A stretch of DNA of 64,000 bases from an uncultured Draconibacterium sp. (GTDB taxonomy: Bacteria; Bacteroidota; Bacteroidia; Bacteroidales; Prolixibacteraceae), in assembly GCF_963675585.1 (NCBI RefSeq), contig NZ_OY776414.1:1157001-1221000 (forward strand). Direction: 5' to 3'. The position numbers and the translations under genes were made by a program. The notes below the pieces were generated by a model. The model was not told the origin of the DNA. It saw only the letters and a list, made by a program, of their open reading frames with translations, and made no database searches. Shown here in pieces: positions 26,897-59,896 of this stretch. The stretch's first letter is position 1, and each line of letters starts with the position of its first letter.

Positions 26897-27340
26897 ATGA
26901 GTTTAGTAAAATTTCACAATCCAGCGTACAACGCAAACAACGTTTTAGTTAATGAGTTATTTAACAACTTCTTTAAAAACGATTACAGTGAACAATACGT
27001 AAAAAATGGGGCAAAACCAGCCACAAATGTATTTGAAACTGAAAAAGATTTCAAAATCGAAGTTTTACTTCCGGGTTTTGTTAAAGAGGATGTAAATCTG
27101 AATGTGCACAATAACATTTTAACCATTAAAGTTGACAAAGAGAAAGAAGAAAAAGCGGTAGAGTACAAATATGCACACCGCGAATTTGGAGTCTATAATT
27201 TTGAAAAACAATACAAGCTGCCAAAATCGGTGGATACCGAAAAAATTGAAGCAAAATTTGAGAACGGTATTTTAGTTCTTAATCTACCTAAAAAGGAGGA
27301 AGCTTTACCAAAGGCGCCGGTTGATATTAAAATTGCATAA
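26897..27340 (+). CDS. Hsp20/alpha-crystallin small heat-shock protein
   Basis: A 147-residue ATP-independent holdase. The alpha-crystallin domain (about 38-135) begins TNVFETEKDFKIEVLLPGF and contains the conserved AHREFGVYNFEKQYKLPKSVD and FENGILVLNLPKKEE (the G-x-L element), with a C-terminal P-V-D-I-K-I tail corresponding to the IxI assembly motif. The start is preceded by AAAAGGAGAAA, a good Shine-Dalgarno sequence, unusual among the genes here and consistent with strong expression. Monocistronic with its own terminator. Confidence 0.95.
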   Translation: MSLVKFHNPAYNANNVLVNELFNNFFKNDYSEQYVKNGAKPATNVFETEKDFKIEVLLPGFVKEDVNLNVHNNILTIKVDKEKEEKAVEYKYAHREFGVYNFEKQYKLPKSVDTEKIEAKFENGILVLNLPKKEEALPKAPVDIKIA

Positions 27341-55375: not shown

Positions 55376-56329
55376 GCTCAAATTTGTTCCTTTTGATCAG
55401 GATATAGAAATATCCAATATTATTTTGAATTAGTTAGTTAAAATCGAAGCATTTAGCTCCAAATTTCCAGATGTAAATATTTTGTGAATACATTTTGTTT
55501 GCATTAATGTGTTTATTTGTAGCTATTTATGGCAGAATAAGTCAGATTTTAACGCCTTCACATTTTAATGAAATTAATCTCTTGCCCACATGTGAGGAAA
55601 TATCTTCGGGAAATACAGGAATAATTACCTTTTTGAGTAATTAAATTATTGAATGCTGCATAGCGCTTAAAATTTTATAATGTGCAATAACGAGATAATA
55701 GCAATGGAGTAGAGAGAGAATAAAACGAGTGTATTCCATATTATATAAGTTAATCGGTACCACTTTATAAATTGATAAGAATAGGGGTATAAAATGATCG
55801 GCTCGACCAATTTATAATTCAGTTAGTTTTGTATCATTAGTAGAAATGTGAAATACTATTTTGACATTTGTAATTACAGTTTAAAATCATGTGCTAATAC
55901 AAATGTGTATGTCAAATTCTGACAACTTTACTGCTGATACAAATGTATACGCATGCTTTAGGCAATACTTCTTTACATTATTACTCATAATTTAACAAAC
56001 AACTCAATATTGGTTACAAAAATAATTTGTTGTCTATGTTAAAACCTTGTGTCGGTTTTGAAAATAACTCTTTTAATTACATCTCTAATTACTGCGAATA
56101 ATTGCAATATCTGTGTTATTTAACACTCACTATATTAATTAGTTACATTCAGTTAATTATTTGGAATTATAATAATTTTGATCAATAGGGGAGTTGTGGC
56201 TGTATTATTTGTTTGTAAATAATCCTATGTAGCTGTTGTCTAGTTGTTTATATTAATTACCTAAAGTGTATTGTAAGATTTATTTGCTGGTTTTATAGCA
56301 CTTTAGTAAAATCAATTGTAGTTAGTAAC
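55376..56329. other. Gene-free AT-rich region before the XRE gene
   Basis: About 950 bp with no credible ORF and no RNA family that I recognise. Notable words are ACATTTGTA at 55864-55872, reverse-oriented ACAAATGT at 55900-55907 and 55938-55945, and the small dyad TGTCA-N5-TGACA (55911-55925). These resemble the -7/operator words found in the small-RNA units downstream. Possible reverse-strand promoters lack a well-spaced -33 box. It may be the decayed left half of that array. Confidence 0.4.
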
Positions 56330-56360
56330 TTGCAAATAGAAAAATTAATTATTACATTTG
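56330..56360 (+). promoter_or_regulatory. Promoter of the XRE regulator gene
   Basis: TTG (56330-56332), 20 nt, TACATTTG (56353-56360) is a near-consensus Bacteroidota promoter; the start would be near 56366. The repeated words ACATTTGT (56355-56362) and GCAAATGT (56373-56380) lie in inverted orientation just after it and may be an operator. Confidence 0.6.
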
Positions 56361-56405
56361 TATCAACCACATGCAAATGTTACCAAACACTAAATGGGCG
56401 TATAT

Positions 56406-56413
56406 TACATTTG
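56406..56413 (+). promoter_or_regulatory. Second TACATTTG box, immediately before the XRE gene
   Basis: A perfect -7 word 17 bp before the ATG but without a -33 partner. It is either an activator-dependent second promoter with an ~11-nt leader, or a second copy of the ACATTTGTA operator word. Confidence 0.4.
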
Positions 56414-56429
56414 TATTTAATTTTGAATA

Positions 56430-56840
56430 ATGAAAGATCGTATAAAACAATACATTGAACAGAAGGGGATTTCAGCGGGGGAACTTGCTGTTATGCTTGA
56501 TGTGCAGCGGTCTAATATTTCCCACATCCTTAATGGACGAAATAAACCCGGTGCTTCTTTTATTGAAAAATTACTATTGACTTTTCCTGATTTAAATGCC
56601 AGGTGGTTATTAACCGGCGCAGGACAAATGATAGAAGGTGTTGAAACACCTGTCCAGAAGAATGAAACATTACCTTTCAAACCAGCAGTAGAAGTGGAGG
56701 AACCTGTCGAAGTTAAGCACAATCCTGCAAAAAAGGTACAACCTGAAGAAACTTCTGTTAATCCGGAGGAAGAAGATACGTTGGATCGATTAGTAGTTTT
56801 ATATAAGGACGGTACATTTACAACATTCAAAAAACGATAA
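56430..56840 (+). CDS. Small XRE-type HTH regulator
   Basis: A 136-residue protein. Residues 3-62 form a lambda-repressor-like HTH: IKQYIEQKGISAGELAVMLDVQRSNISHILNGRNKPGASFIEKLLLTFPDLNARWLLTG. A variable acidic linker (about 70-115) leads to a conserved-looking C-terminal tail, DRLVVLYKDGTFTTFKKR. Similar HTH proteins with an (I/V)VxxYxDGTFxxF tail are frequent in Bacteroidota, often several per genome, and their targets are not known. It is the only credible protein gene in 2.8 kb and is followed on the same strand by a set of small-RNA-like units with related promoter words. A phage or mobile origin is possible, but no other phage gene is near. Confidence 0.85.
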   Translation: MKDRIKQYIEQKGISAGELAVMLDVQRSNISHILNGRNKPGASFIEKLLLTFPDLNARWLLTGAGQMIEGVETPVQKNETLPFKPAVEVEEPVEVKHNPAKKVQPEETSVNPEEEDTLDRLVVLYKDGTFTTFKKR

Positions 56841-56879
56841 AATTAATTCAGGTATTACAATTTAGATTTAATTTTATAG

Positions 56880-56939
56880 TCTGGAATAACAAATATAAAA
56901 AGGTCATCTCTTCGTCAGGTGGCCTTTTTGCATTCCAGA
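56880..56939 (+). terminator. Terminator of the XRE gene, enclosed in an outer stem
   Basis: AAAAAGGTCATC (56897-56908) pairs with GGTGGCCTTTTT (56918-56929) around UCUUCGUCA. An outer 8-bp stem TCTGGAAT (56880-56887) with ATTCCAGA (56932-56939) encloses it. The same nested design recurs in units B and C. Confidence 0.85.
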
Positions 56940-57257
56940 AAATTGATATAAGTTGACATCCTGGTTTATATATTGGAATGTGTTAGTCTTGATTGGTATA
57001 TGCAATGTGAACTTTTCGGCTGAAACTTAAATATGTTTACATATTTAACACTAGGAGTGACGGAATCGATTTGGGCTTTACCAAATCGTTATAAGTAATG
57101 TAGAGTAGTTTACACAAGCCACATAATAATTTTGGCATTTATTCATTTTATTGGTTTCTTGTTTGTAGTGATATTGTAAAAGTATTGTAAACACTGCTGT
57201 TTTGTGTGTTTATTTACAATTCTGTTATTTTGCTTTTTGATGTAAAGTTTACAAATG
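56940..57257. other. Spacer between XRE gene and small-RNA array
   Basis: No gene. It contains CTGGTTTATATA (56961-56972), a 12-mer repeated exactly at the 3' ends of units B and C (57720-57731, 57951-57962), so it may hold the remnant of another unit. TTTACATATTTAA (57036-57048) resembles the -33 word of units B-D. Confidence 0.4.
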
Positions 57258-57289
57258 TTTGTATTTGTAACATAAATGAATTACATTTG
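57258..57289 (+). promoter_or_regulatory. Promoter of unit A
   Basis: TTTG (57258-57261), 20 nt, TACATTTG (57282-57289). Both boxes are exact. Predicted start near 57295. Confidence 0.65.
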
Positions 57290-57294
57290 AACAT

Positions 57295-57420
57295 ATTTGT
57301 TGTTATAATTGTAGAGAATAGTGGTGTGCGGATTTAATATTGTAGAAATGCAATAATCCGGTGTCAGTCATACTCCGGAACATAAAGATCGTTAATATAT
57401 TTAACGGTCTTTGTTGTTTT
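57295..57420 (+). ncRNA. Candidate small RNA, unit A
   Basis: A transcript of about 120 nt with no plausible reading frame. It would contain a bulged hairpin (57329-57360: CGGAT and TATTG pairing with CAATA and ATCCG) and a strong terminator (AAAGATCGTTAA, 57384-57395, with TTAACGGTCTTT, 57401-57412, then GTTGTTTT). TCCGG/CCGGA around 57356-57379 offers an alternative stem. Its terminator closely resembles that of unit D (shared CGTTAAT and ACGGTCTTT). Function unknown. Confidence 0.55.
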
Positions 57421-57561
57421 AAAGCTACAAGTTACTTCATAGGTAGTTAACAATGTTAATATTCTTAAACTGAACTCCAAATAACGCTAGCGGTCAATTT
57501 ACATATCTAAAATACGCATCTAAATTAAATTTCATATTTGTGAAATTATTTTTCAAAAAAG

Positions 57562-57593
57562 TTTGCATATGTAAATTAGTATTTGTACATTTG
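57562..57593 (+). promoter_or_regulatory. Promoter of unit B
   Basis: TTTG (57562-57565), 20 nt, TACATTTG (57586-57593). The -33 box is part of the near-palindrome TTTGCATATGTAAA (57562-57575), and the -7 box part of GTACATTTGTA. Predicted start near 57599. Confidence 0.7.
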
Positions 57594-57598
57594 TAATG

Positions 57599-57726
57599 TC
57601 AATATAAGAGACAAATAAAAAAGACAGGATGATTACATTATAATAGATTCAATTTACAAACCCAATTTAGAAGTTGATAAATCCAGAAGTCGCTTGGCCA
57701 CTAGTAATAGTGGCCATTTCTGGTTT
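57599..57726 (+). ncRNA. Candidate small RNA, unit B
   Basis: About 128 nt, mostly unstructured and A-rich at the 5' side, with a nested 3' hairpin: outer stem CCAGAA (57683-57688) with TTCTGG (57718-57723), inner stem TGGCCACT (57695-57702) with AGTGGCCA (57709-57716) and loop AGTAAT. The longest ATG frame is four codons, so it does not encode a protein. The U tract after the inner stem is short, so the end point is approximate. Confidence 0.6.
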
Positions 57727-57792
57727 ATATACTTGTGTAATAAAAATGTAAAATCAGGCATTTAAAAAGATTAAATATTTTTTTCAAAAAAA

Positions 57793-57824
57793 TTTGCATA
57801 TGTAAATTAGTGATTGTACATTTG
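57793..57824 (+). promoter_or_regulatory. Promoter of unit C
   Basis: TTTG (57793-57796), 20 nt, TACATTTG (57817-57824), again with TTTGCATATGTAAA at the -33 box. The spacer has two changes relative to unit B. Predicted start near 57830. Confidence 0.7.
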
Positions 57825-57829
57825 TAATG

Positions 57830-57957
57830 TAAATATAAAAGACAAATAAATAAGACAGGATGATTACATTATAATAGATTCAATTTACAAACCCAATTTA
57901 GAAGTTGATAAATCCAGAAGTCGCTTGGCCACTAGTAATAGTGGCCATTTCTGGTTT
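57830..57957 (+). ncRNA. Candidate small RNA, unit C
   Basis: Near-identical sister of unit B: same length, same nested 3' hairpin (57914-57954). Substitutions are confined to the unpaired 5' region, the pattern expected if the 3' structure is under selection or the duplication is recent. Confidence 0.6.
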
Positions 57958-58022
57958 ATATACCTTGGTAGTGATCATGTAAATCCGATTGTAAATAAAA
58001 ATTGTAAATATTCAAACTAATG

Positions 58023-58054
58023 TTTGCATATGTAAAAACAAGTAGTTACATTTG
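58023..58054 (+). promoter_or_regulatory. Promoter of unit D
   Basis: TTTG (58023-58026), 20 nt, TACATTTG (58047-58054), with the same TTTGCATATGTAAA word, exactly 230 bp after that of unit C. Predicted start near 58060. Confidence 0.7.
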
Positions 58055-58059
58055 TACTG

Positions 58060-58150
58060 TTGAAAGTTTAGCAGAGACCCTTATTTTTTATCCTAAATAT
58101 ATTTTAGAGTTTAAATACAAGACCGTTAATTCTGACGGTCTTTTTGTTTT
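58060..58150 (+). ncRNA. Candidate small RNA, unit D
   Basis: About 90 nt. The promoter is of the B/C type but the body has diverged. It ends in a canonical terminator: AAGACCGT (58119-58126) with ACGGTCTT (58135-58142), then TTTGTTTTT. An internal CTAAA-N5-TTTAG hairpin lies near 58093. It ends about 65 bp before pyrK and could read into it if termination were leaky. A 63-codon ORF crossing this unit from 58020 spans both promoter and terminator and is not credible. Confidence 0.55.
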
Positions 58151-58188
58151 TATAGATCGATTGGAATCTGAAAAGCATATAATTCTAT

Positions 58189-58205
58189 TATATTTGCATG
58201 CAAAT
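58189..58205 (+). promoter_or_regulatory. pyrK promoter -7 box overlapped by a palindrome
   Basis: TATATTTG (58189-58196) matches TAnnTTTG and lies 18 bp before the pyrK ATG. It overlaps the perfect 14-bp palindrome ATTTGCATGCAAAT (58192-58205), which shares TTTGCAT with the -33 word of units B-D. No well-spaced -33 box is present. Confidence 0.5.
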
Positions 58206-58214
58206 TTTTAATAC

Positions 58215-58991
58215 ATGCGAAAAAAATTTGTTGCCGATTTTACGGTGGTAGAAAATAAAGCACTCAACTCTACCAATTTTCTAATAAAAATAAAAAGCGA
58301 TTCTGCTTTACCCGAGATTAAACCCGGGCAATTTGTAAATGTTGAAATAAAACAAGCTTCAGAAGTTTTTTTACGCCGACCATTTTCAATATTTGAAGTT
58401 GATTATAAGGATAATACGCTCTCGATGATTATTAAAATATTGGGAAAAGGCTCTAAGATACTAACAGACATAAAAGTTGGTGATTCTGTAAGTTTGGTTT
58501 ATCCGCTTGGTAAAAGTTTTACTTATCCTGAAAAGCAGGATAGAATATTGCTTATTGGAGGAGGAAGTGGTGTAGCACCTATGCTTTTTTTAGCAAAAGA
58601 ATCAGGATTAGCAAAAGAGCAAGTTGATATTTTATTGGGAGCCCGCAGCAGTGAAGATCATATTAATGTTGAGGAGTATTCGCAATTCGCCAATTTACAC
58701 TATGCATCAGAAGATGGTTCTTTAGGCGAAAAAGGATTTGTTACACAACATTCAGTTTTTACAACTGATTTGAAAGCTTATACCAAAATATACGCTTGTG
58801 GACCTGATGGTATGATGCGTGCAATTGCAAAAGAAGCAAAAACTGCTGAAGTATTTTGTGAAGTTTCGCTTGAGAATTTGATGGCATGTGGTTTTGGTGT
58901 TTGTTTGTGCTGTATAGAGCCGACAAATAAAGGCAACCAGTGTGTGTGTACTGATGGACCGGTATTTAATATTAATGATTTGAAATGGTAG
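58215..58991 (+). CDS. pyrK: Dihydroorotate dehydrogenase electron-transfer subunit
   Basis: A 258-residue ferredoxin-reductase-like protein. The FAD domain has RRPFSIF (about 55-61), the NAD domain GGGSGVAPM (about 116-124) and YACGPDGMM, and the C-terminal [2Fe-2S] site is [29 protein letters not shown] (about 223-251) with C-x4-C-x2-C plus a distal Cys. It passes electrons from dihydroorotate oxidation to NAD+. It overlaps pyrD by 7 bp, forming the heterotetrameric class 1B enzyme. Confidence 0.95.
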
Positions 58992-59896
58992 ATTTAAAAG
59001 TAAAATTACACGATTTAGAGTTTAAAAACCCGGTTACACTAGCTTCGGGAACTTGTGGTTTTGTACGCGAAATTGCTGATTTTTATGATCCTGGATTGCT
59101 GGGAGGGCACTTTTTAAAAGGAACAACCCTTAAAAACAGAGATGGCAATGAATATCCACGAATGGCAGAAACTGCATCAGGAATGTTAAATGCCGTTGGT
59201 TTGCAAAATAAAGGAATAGACTATTTTATTGAGAATATTTATCCCGAAATTCAGGATTACGATACACAATTAATTATAAATGTAAACGGTTCAACAGTTG
59301 AAGATTACATTGCATTAGCTGAAAAAGTAAATCAACTTGATAAAATACCGGCCATAGAGTTAAATATTTCGTGTCCAAATGTAAAAGAGGGGGGAATGGC
59401 TTTTGGAGTTACCTGCCCGGGAGCTGAAATGGTTACTCGCGAGGTGAGGAAAGTGTATGATAAAACAATGATCGTTAAACTTTCGCCAAATGTTACCGAT
59501 ATTTCAGAGATTGCAAAGGCGGTAGAGGCGCAGGGTGCCGACTCCGTTTCGTTGGTGAATACATTTTTGGGAATGGCAATCGATGCCGAAACCCGAAAGC
59601 CAAAATTATCGACTGTTACAGGTGGATTGTCGGGGCCAGCAATAAAACCAATTGCACTTCGTATGGTTTGGCAAGTGTCAAATGCTGTAAAAATACCCGT
59701 AGTTGGTATTGGTGGAATAATGAATACTGAAGATGCCATCGAATTTTTACTGGCAGGTGCGTCTGTAATTCAGGTAGGAACCGCAATATTTAAAGATCCG
59801 ATGATTCCACTTAAGATTGTTGATGGAATAAGTGAGTACCTCGATCGTCATAACATACAGTCAGTTAGTGAATTAATTGGTGGTTTACAATTGTAG
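58985..59896 (+). CDS. pyrD: Dihydroorotate dehydrogenase, class 1B catalytic subunit
   Basis: A 303-residue FMN enzyme of pyrimidine synthesis, oxidising dihydroorotate to orotate in the cytoplasm. Motifs: [44 protein letters not shown] (substrate loop), [11 protein letters not shown] with the catalytic Cys of class 1 enzymes (about residue 130), [31 protein letters not shown] and [26 protein letters not shown] (FMN phosphate). The adjacent pyrK confirms class 1B. Confidence 0.96.

Follow-up and report, generated by a model that had tools for sequence, protein, structure and literature searches.

The window analysed here is a 64,000-nt stretch of DNA from an uncultured Draconibacterium sp. 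(contig NZ_OY776414.1, positions 1,157,001 to 1,221,000). It contains a gene for an XRE-type regulator, followed by 1.37 kb without a convincing gene and then by a pyrK-like gene and pyrD. Four compact promoter-hairpin units, A to D, lie in the intervening stretch; the features of the locus are:

56430-56840, plus strand: XRE-type regulator of 136 aa (HTH_19/HTH_3; Pfam HTH_19 E 2.6e-10, HTH_3 E 2.8e-8)
56897-56929, plus strand: hairpin and T-run 3' of the XRE gene, a probable terminator recognised by eye and absent from the computed list of terminator-like hairpins
57258-57289, plus strand: unit A promoter, TTTG-N20-TACATTTG (exact pattern; definition from PMC7366714)
57291-57419, plus strand: putative family A RNA with terminal hairpin at 57382-57414 (alignment with 18 relatives; z-score -3.05)
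57562-57593, plus strand: unit B promoter (exact pattern), with the dyad TTTGCATATGTAAA over its -33 box
57597-57731, plus strand: putative family B RNA, first copy (R2 148.6 bits and R3 E 5.5e-13, both models containing the row of this unit; covarying stem, 20 loci)
57793-57824, plus strand: unit C promoter (exact pattern), dyad TTTGCATATGTAAA as in B
57828-57962, plus strand: putative family B RNA, second copy (unit C; R2 148.0 bits; 135 of 138 positions as in unit B)
58023-58054, plus strand: unit D promoter (exact pattern), dyad TTTGCATATGTAAA as in B and C
58056-58149, plus strand: putative family D RNA with intrinsic terminator at 58119-58142 (conserved block GACCCT(n)ATTTTTTA; R1 69.2 bits, the model containing the row of this unit)
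58189-58196, plus strand: TATATTTG, probable -7 box of pyrK, 3' of the unit D terminator (from the sequence, with an equivalent in relatives)
58215-58991, plus strand: pyrK-like gene, dihydroorotate dehydrogenase electron transfer subunit (DHODB_Fe-S_bind E 2.6e-12; NF000798 E 7.6e-53, under the cut-off of that model)
58985-59896, plus strand: pyrD, dihydroorotate dehydrogenase (NF005574 411.7 bits, cut-off 269)

The pyrK-like gene forms the right border of the cluster, unit D ending about 65 bp 5' of its start. The XRE protein scores below the cut-off of the HigA-type antitoxin model TIGR02607 (19.6 vs 47.7 bits). On the other side of its gene lies about 1 kb (55376-56429) without evident genes, in which several TACATTTG-like boxes occur on both strands. 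In this upstream region a single 37-nt piece, close to the XRE start, is common to the window and locus L002, with no further similarity to the window at E 1e-3; the last 115 nt or so are the most conserved among the Draconibacterium-type relatives.

The four TTTG-N20-TACATTTG promoters reported by the first-pass annotation are all present, on the plus strand and within 800 bp. The exact pattern occurs five times in the 64-kb window, against 0.01 expected from 100 dinucleotide shuffles, and 14 times in the 6.03-Mb genome, four of these in the cluster (reversed control: 2). The fifth match in the window is on the minus strand at 27024-27055, distant from the cluster. With a loose spacing of 16 to 24 and a TAnnTTTG box there are 9 matches in the window for 8.4 expected; what is unusual is therefore the exact box and its clustering. 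TTTG near -33 with TAnnTTTG at -7 is the consensus of the Bacteroidota primary sigma factor, sigma-ABfr, according to PMC7366714, and the -7 consensus is also given in PMC9723704. All four unit promoters conform to this definition, so that similar spacing is to be expected while the clustering is left unexplained by the promoter type. The exact 20-nt spacing thus holds for the four units of the window, but neither as a fixed rule nor as the oddity it was first taken for, being largely standard for sigma-ABfr: in 19 loci all 20 B units have a spacing of 20, but 12 of the 15 D promoters found by pattern have 19. In these loci a separate promoter precedes most B and D units. At L025, L044 and L045, D stands close behind B with no D promoter seen, and the two may share one transcript. 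At L002 (226-545, minus strand) the promoter and first bases of D are nearly identical with those of unit B, as though gene conversion had copied them.

By sequence the four units are not repeats of a single RNA; they represent three families, namely A, B (comprising units B and C) and D, with one promoter design in common and no evident mutual sequence similarity. The multi-copy set of the earlier reading has accordingly to be given up, three different families being present of which one only is duplicated in the window, whereas the sequence does contain separate small units beside an XRE gene, each with a promoter and a hairpin. The predicted RNAs measure about 110-130 nt (A), about 135 nt (B) and about 90 nt (D). 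Family A is recognised by the block TTGTAGAGAAT and its terminator, family B by the blocks GACAGGATGAT, TTTACAAACCCAATTT and AAATCCAGAAGTCGCTTGG with a hairpin, and family D by GACCCTT(T)ATTTTTTA with a terminator, the length of the D block differing by one base among relatives. Conserved blocks predicted to be unpaired are GACAGGATGAT, TTTACAAACCC and CAGAAGTYGCT in B, GACCCTTTATTTTTTATC in D and the same TTGTAGAGAAT in A. Adjacent near-identical copies, each with a promoter and a hairpin as in tandem sibling RNAs, are found in B and C only; these two are the products of a recent duplication, judging from their near-identity over the transcribed positions. They differ at 57600, 57608 and 57620, all in the 5' part. 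Confinement of the changes to an unpaired 5' portion, as previously described, is correct as to their distance from the terminal hairpin, but position 57600 falls within a weak 5' stem predicted for unit B only. Since alignment rows were chosen by conserved blocks (for family A the window and 18 relatives, selected by TTGTAGAGA or placed by hand), identity over the whole gap and motif counts against shuffles are the fairer measures of conservation. Across the whole xre-pyrK gap of 11 Draconibacterium-type relatives, A, B and D stand out as islands with identities of 0.82-1.0, compared with 0.51-0.76 between the islands, the pyrK -7 box forming a fourth. Elsewhere in the window's genome, between a hypothetical gene and an rpsO-like frame, L032:1501-1587 (G000:C4:3431984-3432070, minus strand) contains ACCCTTATTTTTTATC, an exact match to 16 nt of the D block, with a G+C hairpin and a T-rich tail behind it; it scores 38.7 bits with the D model and is possibly a distant relative of D.

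The strong 3' hairpins were recovered: four terminator-like structures lie in 56800-58300 for 0.1 expected, and the minimum free energies of units A, B, C and D give z-scores of -3.05, -3.85, -3.06 and -2.60 against shuffles. Single folds place the terminal hairpin in 19/19 rows of A, 19/19 of D and 18/18 of B. The 8-bp terminal stem of B is paired in 99.4% of cells (22 rows, 20 loci) and shows double changes in five of its eight pairs (18 cells), compared with 2.4 pairs and 5.3 cells in shuffles; none of 500 shuffles was as high, and slid structures gave 0-1 such pairs. Further pair types were not in excess in this stem (7 vs 8.3 in shuffles). Because the stem hardly varies inside the main clade, where none of 20 predicted B pairs has double changes (alignment A1), the covariation rests on the deep relatives. 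These have a T-run behind the hairpin; the B tail of the main clade has 2-7 T in its last 12 bases, and termination of B is less sure on account of these few T's. For family A, RNAalifold gave no common structure, probably because MAFFT misaligned the A terminators. The absence of a known RNA family was upheld by Rfam 15, with no match at gathering score in the 64 kb; at E up to 10, the region 55400-58300 has seven matches (E 0.58-10), all far under gathering and none credible. That the units lack reading frames is true in so far as no frame is conserved in start and length, and a coding reading is rejected on this ground. It is not literally true, a 63-codon frame (58020-58211) crossing unit D. 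The D transcript could not use this frame, its ATG lying upstream of the D promoter, and among six relatives (frames of at least 35 codons) a shorter frame with a different start runs over the D DNA in L002, L004 and L011; the 63-codon frame is probably not a gene. A mini-ORF after GATGAT in family B was likewise dismissed, being variable in length and missing in some deep relatives by eye.

The units prove to be conserved in related genomes, and they adjoin homologues of the 136-residue HTH protein. An XRE match was found in 28 genomes of our genus sample (37 genomes of Draconibacterium, Maribellus and kin) and in 38/42 family genomes. All three RNA families are present in the xre-pyrK gap of 19 of the 28 genus xre loci, namely the window's own and 18 relatives. 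The B motif TTACAAACC(C/T) is found in 26/28 of these gaps, with 0.085 expected (200 shuffle rounds, largest 2), and in none of the 28 kilobases 5' of the same loci; the D block is found in 19/28 gaps and never in shuffles. A covariance-model search with R3, a model of the B core, gave a match in 26/37 genus genomes (124 candidates scored per genome), 20 of the 26 being positive by construction since they supplied model rows; the six others are G002, G008, G011, G012, G013 and G034. Twenty-eight of the 29 R3 matches lie a few hundred bases 3' of xre on the same strand, the exception being that of G011 (E 0.0013), a genome without an XRE match. No R3 copy was detected elsewhere in the genomes with B at the xre locus, at the scoring depth used, and three XRE-bearing genus genomes (G019, G023, G027) had no R3 match. 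The model thus matches 25/28 genomes with XRE and 1/9 without, several of the nine being incomplete (Fisher p 3.5e-5, a value that ignores kinship and the choice of model rows). As a second B model, R2, reaches 36.9 bits on the opposite strand and some divergent B members score 33-43 bits, the latter are assigned by motif and place, not by their R2 score.

Exact 18-mer matches in named genomes fall in Draconibacterium, in Maribellus (both Prolixibacteraceae, Marinilabiliales) and in two MAGs of Bacteroidales that have this locus as well (L044, L045). The 18-mer matches of genome contigs at L041, L047, L049 and L056 are attributed to chance, having no R3 match at E up to 1. The same applies to L127, the sole match on a viral contig, and spread by phage, judged on 18-mer matches in genome and viral contigs, is rejected. 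Presence in G576 is rejected as well, since L064 is the terminator that follows an smpB-like frame. Two B-like units each are found in L026 and L027. L065 to L068, in two neighbouring genera, have a single one each, marked by TTTACAA(A/G)CCC, by ATGACAGGATGAT or a similar sequence and by a terminator (R3 E 0.35, 0.0017, 0.11 and 0.0026, respectively). The R3 family search (41 genomes, 112 candidates each) had matches in G000 and G012 only, and did not recover the B-like units of G336, G337 and G355; the order and phylum searches (295 and 395 genomes), with 11 candidates scored per genome, are weak negatives. Absence of B elsewhere is consequently not proven, few candidates having been scored and real B-like units having been missed by the family search.

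In a tree of XRE and PyrK from 42 loci, a branch with a support of 98 has every B-bearing locus on the same side. L023 and L028 lie on this side too, without B, and look like losses, with support of 56-80 for their exact placement. Outside the B clade, the 11 family loci read at both ends have an xre-pyrK gap of 12-166 bp and no B motif. Such short gaps without B outside a single clade of bearers argue that the xre-pyrK neighbourhood is old and that B entered it once. The 19 loci in which D was found all belong to the main Draconibacterium/Maribellus part, the only part in which A was aligned; at L020, L022 and L024 D was not found although pyrK is retained. A, D and the window's duplicate of B probably came later than B.

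These promoters and hairpins, the conservation and covariation, the synteny and the single clade of bearers are properties of the DNA itself, and they suggest to us that the xre-pyrK stretch probably encodes a group of regulatory small RNAs that are transcribed independently and act in trans. Each RNA would be made from its own sigma-ABfr promoter and ended by its own 3' hairpin. B would have arisen first and once, in the old XRE-pyrK gap; the cluster would have grown afterwards, its latest step being the duplication into B and C in the window's genome. How the RNAs might be controlled is suggested by TTTGCATATGTAAA, a 14-bp dyad two bases short of a perfect palindrome, which covers the -33 box in three of the units, B, C and D, and is present in unit A in degenerate form only. 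At up to two mismatches, TTTGCATATGTAAA-N14-TTTG has four matches in the 6.03-Mb genome (reversed control: 3), and its only exact copies are the three of units B, C and D, the fourth match having two mismatches. In the 20 B promoters of the 19 loci the second half, CATATGTRAA, is nearly invariant and the spacer that follows varies. The D promoters of the relatives (15 found) keep the dyad more loosely, and in the deep relatives B is without it. We consider it rather likely that the dyad is an operator, through which the RNAs would be under joint control, the adjoining XRE protein being the simplest choice of regulator. The confinement of the exact promoter to one locus makes this protein the first candidate, and that it controls the RNAs, putatively via the dyad, has in our judgement an even chance. 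Within 350 bp 5' of xre the exact dyad is absent from all 46 loci. Forms with up to two mismatches occur there in 11/46, a count that has no chance control, and of these only the dyad of L024 is placed, by eye, at the -33 position of the XRE promoter. With no exact dyad 5' of xre, autoregulation through it is unsupported, and another protein could bind. Nor does adjacency prove control: in Neisseria, the sibling sRNAs next to lrp were unchanged when lrp was deleted or overexpressed (PMC5362039).

A competing view is that the likeness of the promoters is a relic of duplication, the dyad being no operator and the XRE gene an unrelated neighbour. It is consistent with the recent duplication of B and C, with the B-like D promoter and leader of L002, with an XRE-pyrK neighbourhood older than the RNAs, and with the loose dyad of the relatives' D promoters. 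However, the half of the dyad outside the -33 box is, with one variable position, as constant as the box itself in the 20 B promoters, next to a variable spacer; descent alone fails to explain a constant half beside a varying one, and we regard this view as unlikely.

The cluster of regulatory RNAs proposed here would act through the conserved unpaired blocks on mRNAs or on an RNA-binding protein, and base-pairing with targets is the mode that we infer for it. Searches for complements pointed to no clear targets: with up to one mismatch in ten genomes, the complement of the B block has 55 places for 32 of the reversed control, 10 of the 55 being the B genes themselves (leaving 45 vs 32). For the longer form of the D block the complement has 5 places, in 4/10 genomes, against 17 control places, and four of the five are the D gene itself; this pattern cannot match the shorter D form present in the window's genome and in close kin. 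In 12 loci, pairing of the three RNAs among themselves or with the xre or pyrK starts did not consistently exceed shuffles. One exact 15-nt complement of the B block lies outside the xre locus of one relative (L097; G017:C5:49462-49476, minus strand). The RNAs could instead be sponges or ligands of a protein, either an RRM-type RNA-binding protein or XRE itself, with the unpaired blocks as protein sites. Very conserved unpaired blocks without a clear excess of complements would fit such a role, as would the retention of CAGAAGTYGCT without its pairing partner in L020, L022 and L024, and the phylum offers a precedent in the binding of FopS sRNAs by RbpB in Bacteroides (PMC11697453). We judge this role improbable.

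Pyrimidine operons of other bacteria use terminators in U-rich leaders, a precedent that makes it conceivable that the units are a cis leader or attenuator tuning pyrK-pyrD to the pyrimidine supply. Unit D, with a U-rich tract and a terminator some 65 bp before pyrK, is the foremost candidate, and in the loci read the RNAs are indeed located between xre and pyrK. However, individual promoters precede most B and D units, and a conserved -7 box (TATATTTG in the window, equivalent to the TATCTTTG stretch of 11 relatives, identity 0.92-0.99) lies between the D terminator and pyrK, whose transcript thus probably starts 3' of D; with this box, and with pyrK staying at three loci where D is not found, an attenuator is disfavoured and in our opinion improbable.

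To our knowledge, few sRNAs of Bacteroidota have been characterised outside a handful of model species. The birth of sRNA groups is rarely visible. Here origin, growth and losses can be traced in named genera that include type strains, among them Draconibacterium orientale and Maribellus sediminis with islands A, B and D, and the locus of the RNAs also offers candidates for both the regulator and the operator. We tentatively envisage, as a possibility that we would rate somewhat doubtful, a module new to Bacteroidota in which an old XRE regulator beside pyrKD gained its own bank of sRNAs under a common operator, a first RNA gene in the gap 3' of it being followed by two further families; if so, one DNA-binding protein would drive several different RNAs from a single 1-kb locus. 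A literature search, most subscription journals being outside its reach, yielded nothing describing an xre-pyrK sRNA cluster. Among multi-member sRNAs of the phylum, FopS/GibS of Bacteroides thetaiotaomicron are comparable, and the FopS promoters also are of the sigma-ABfr type, but FopS RNAs are about 65-70 nt long, with 14 paralogues and a different seed (PMC11697453); their R1' seed is absent from the window, where 27 nt of the published consensus find no counterpart at up to three mismatches. Rfp18 of Flavobacterium psychrophilum is likewise a conserved Bacteroidota sRNA, with a regulatory effect (PMC9723704), and belongs to another lineage. A close parallel is with tandem sibling sRNAs (AbcR1/2, PrrF1/2, OmrA/B, csRNAs, NmsRA/B), whose genes stand in a row and in which duplication produces near-identical copies. 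Some of these clusters also adjoin a regulator gene: AbcR of S. meliloti lies between ArsR and LysR genes and the NmsR sRNAs lie beside lrp, according to PMC4211561 and PMC5362039, respectively. Unlike these siblings, the units described here comprise three families with one promoter design, in Bacteroidota; on sequence they are set apart by the Rfam search, which gave no match. Tandem sibling sRNAs, some of them beside regulators, are thus known; new, as far as the sequences indicate, would be the three families, their common dyad promoter and an origin that can be traced.
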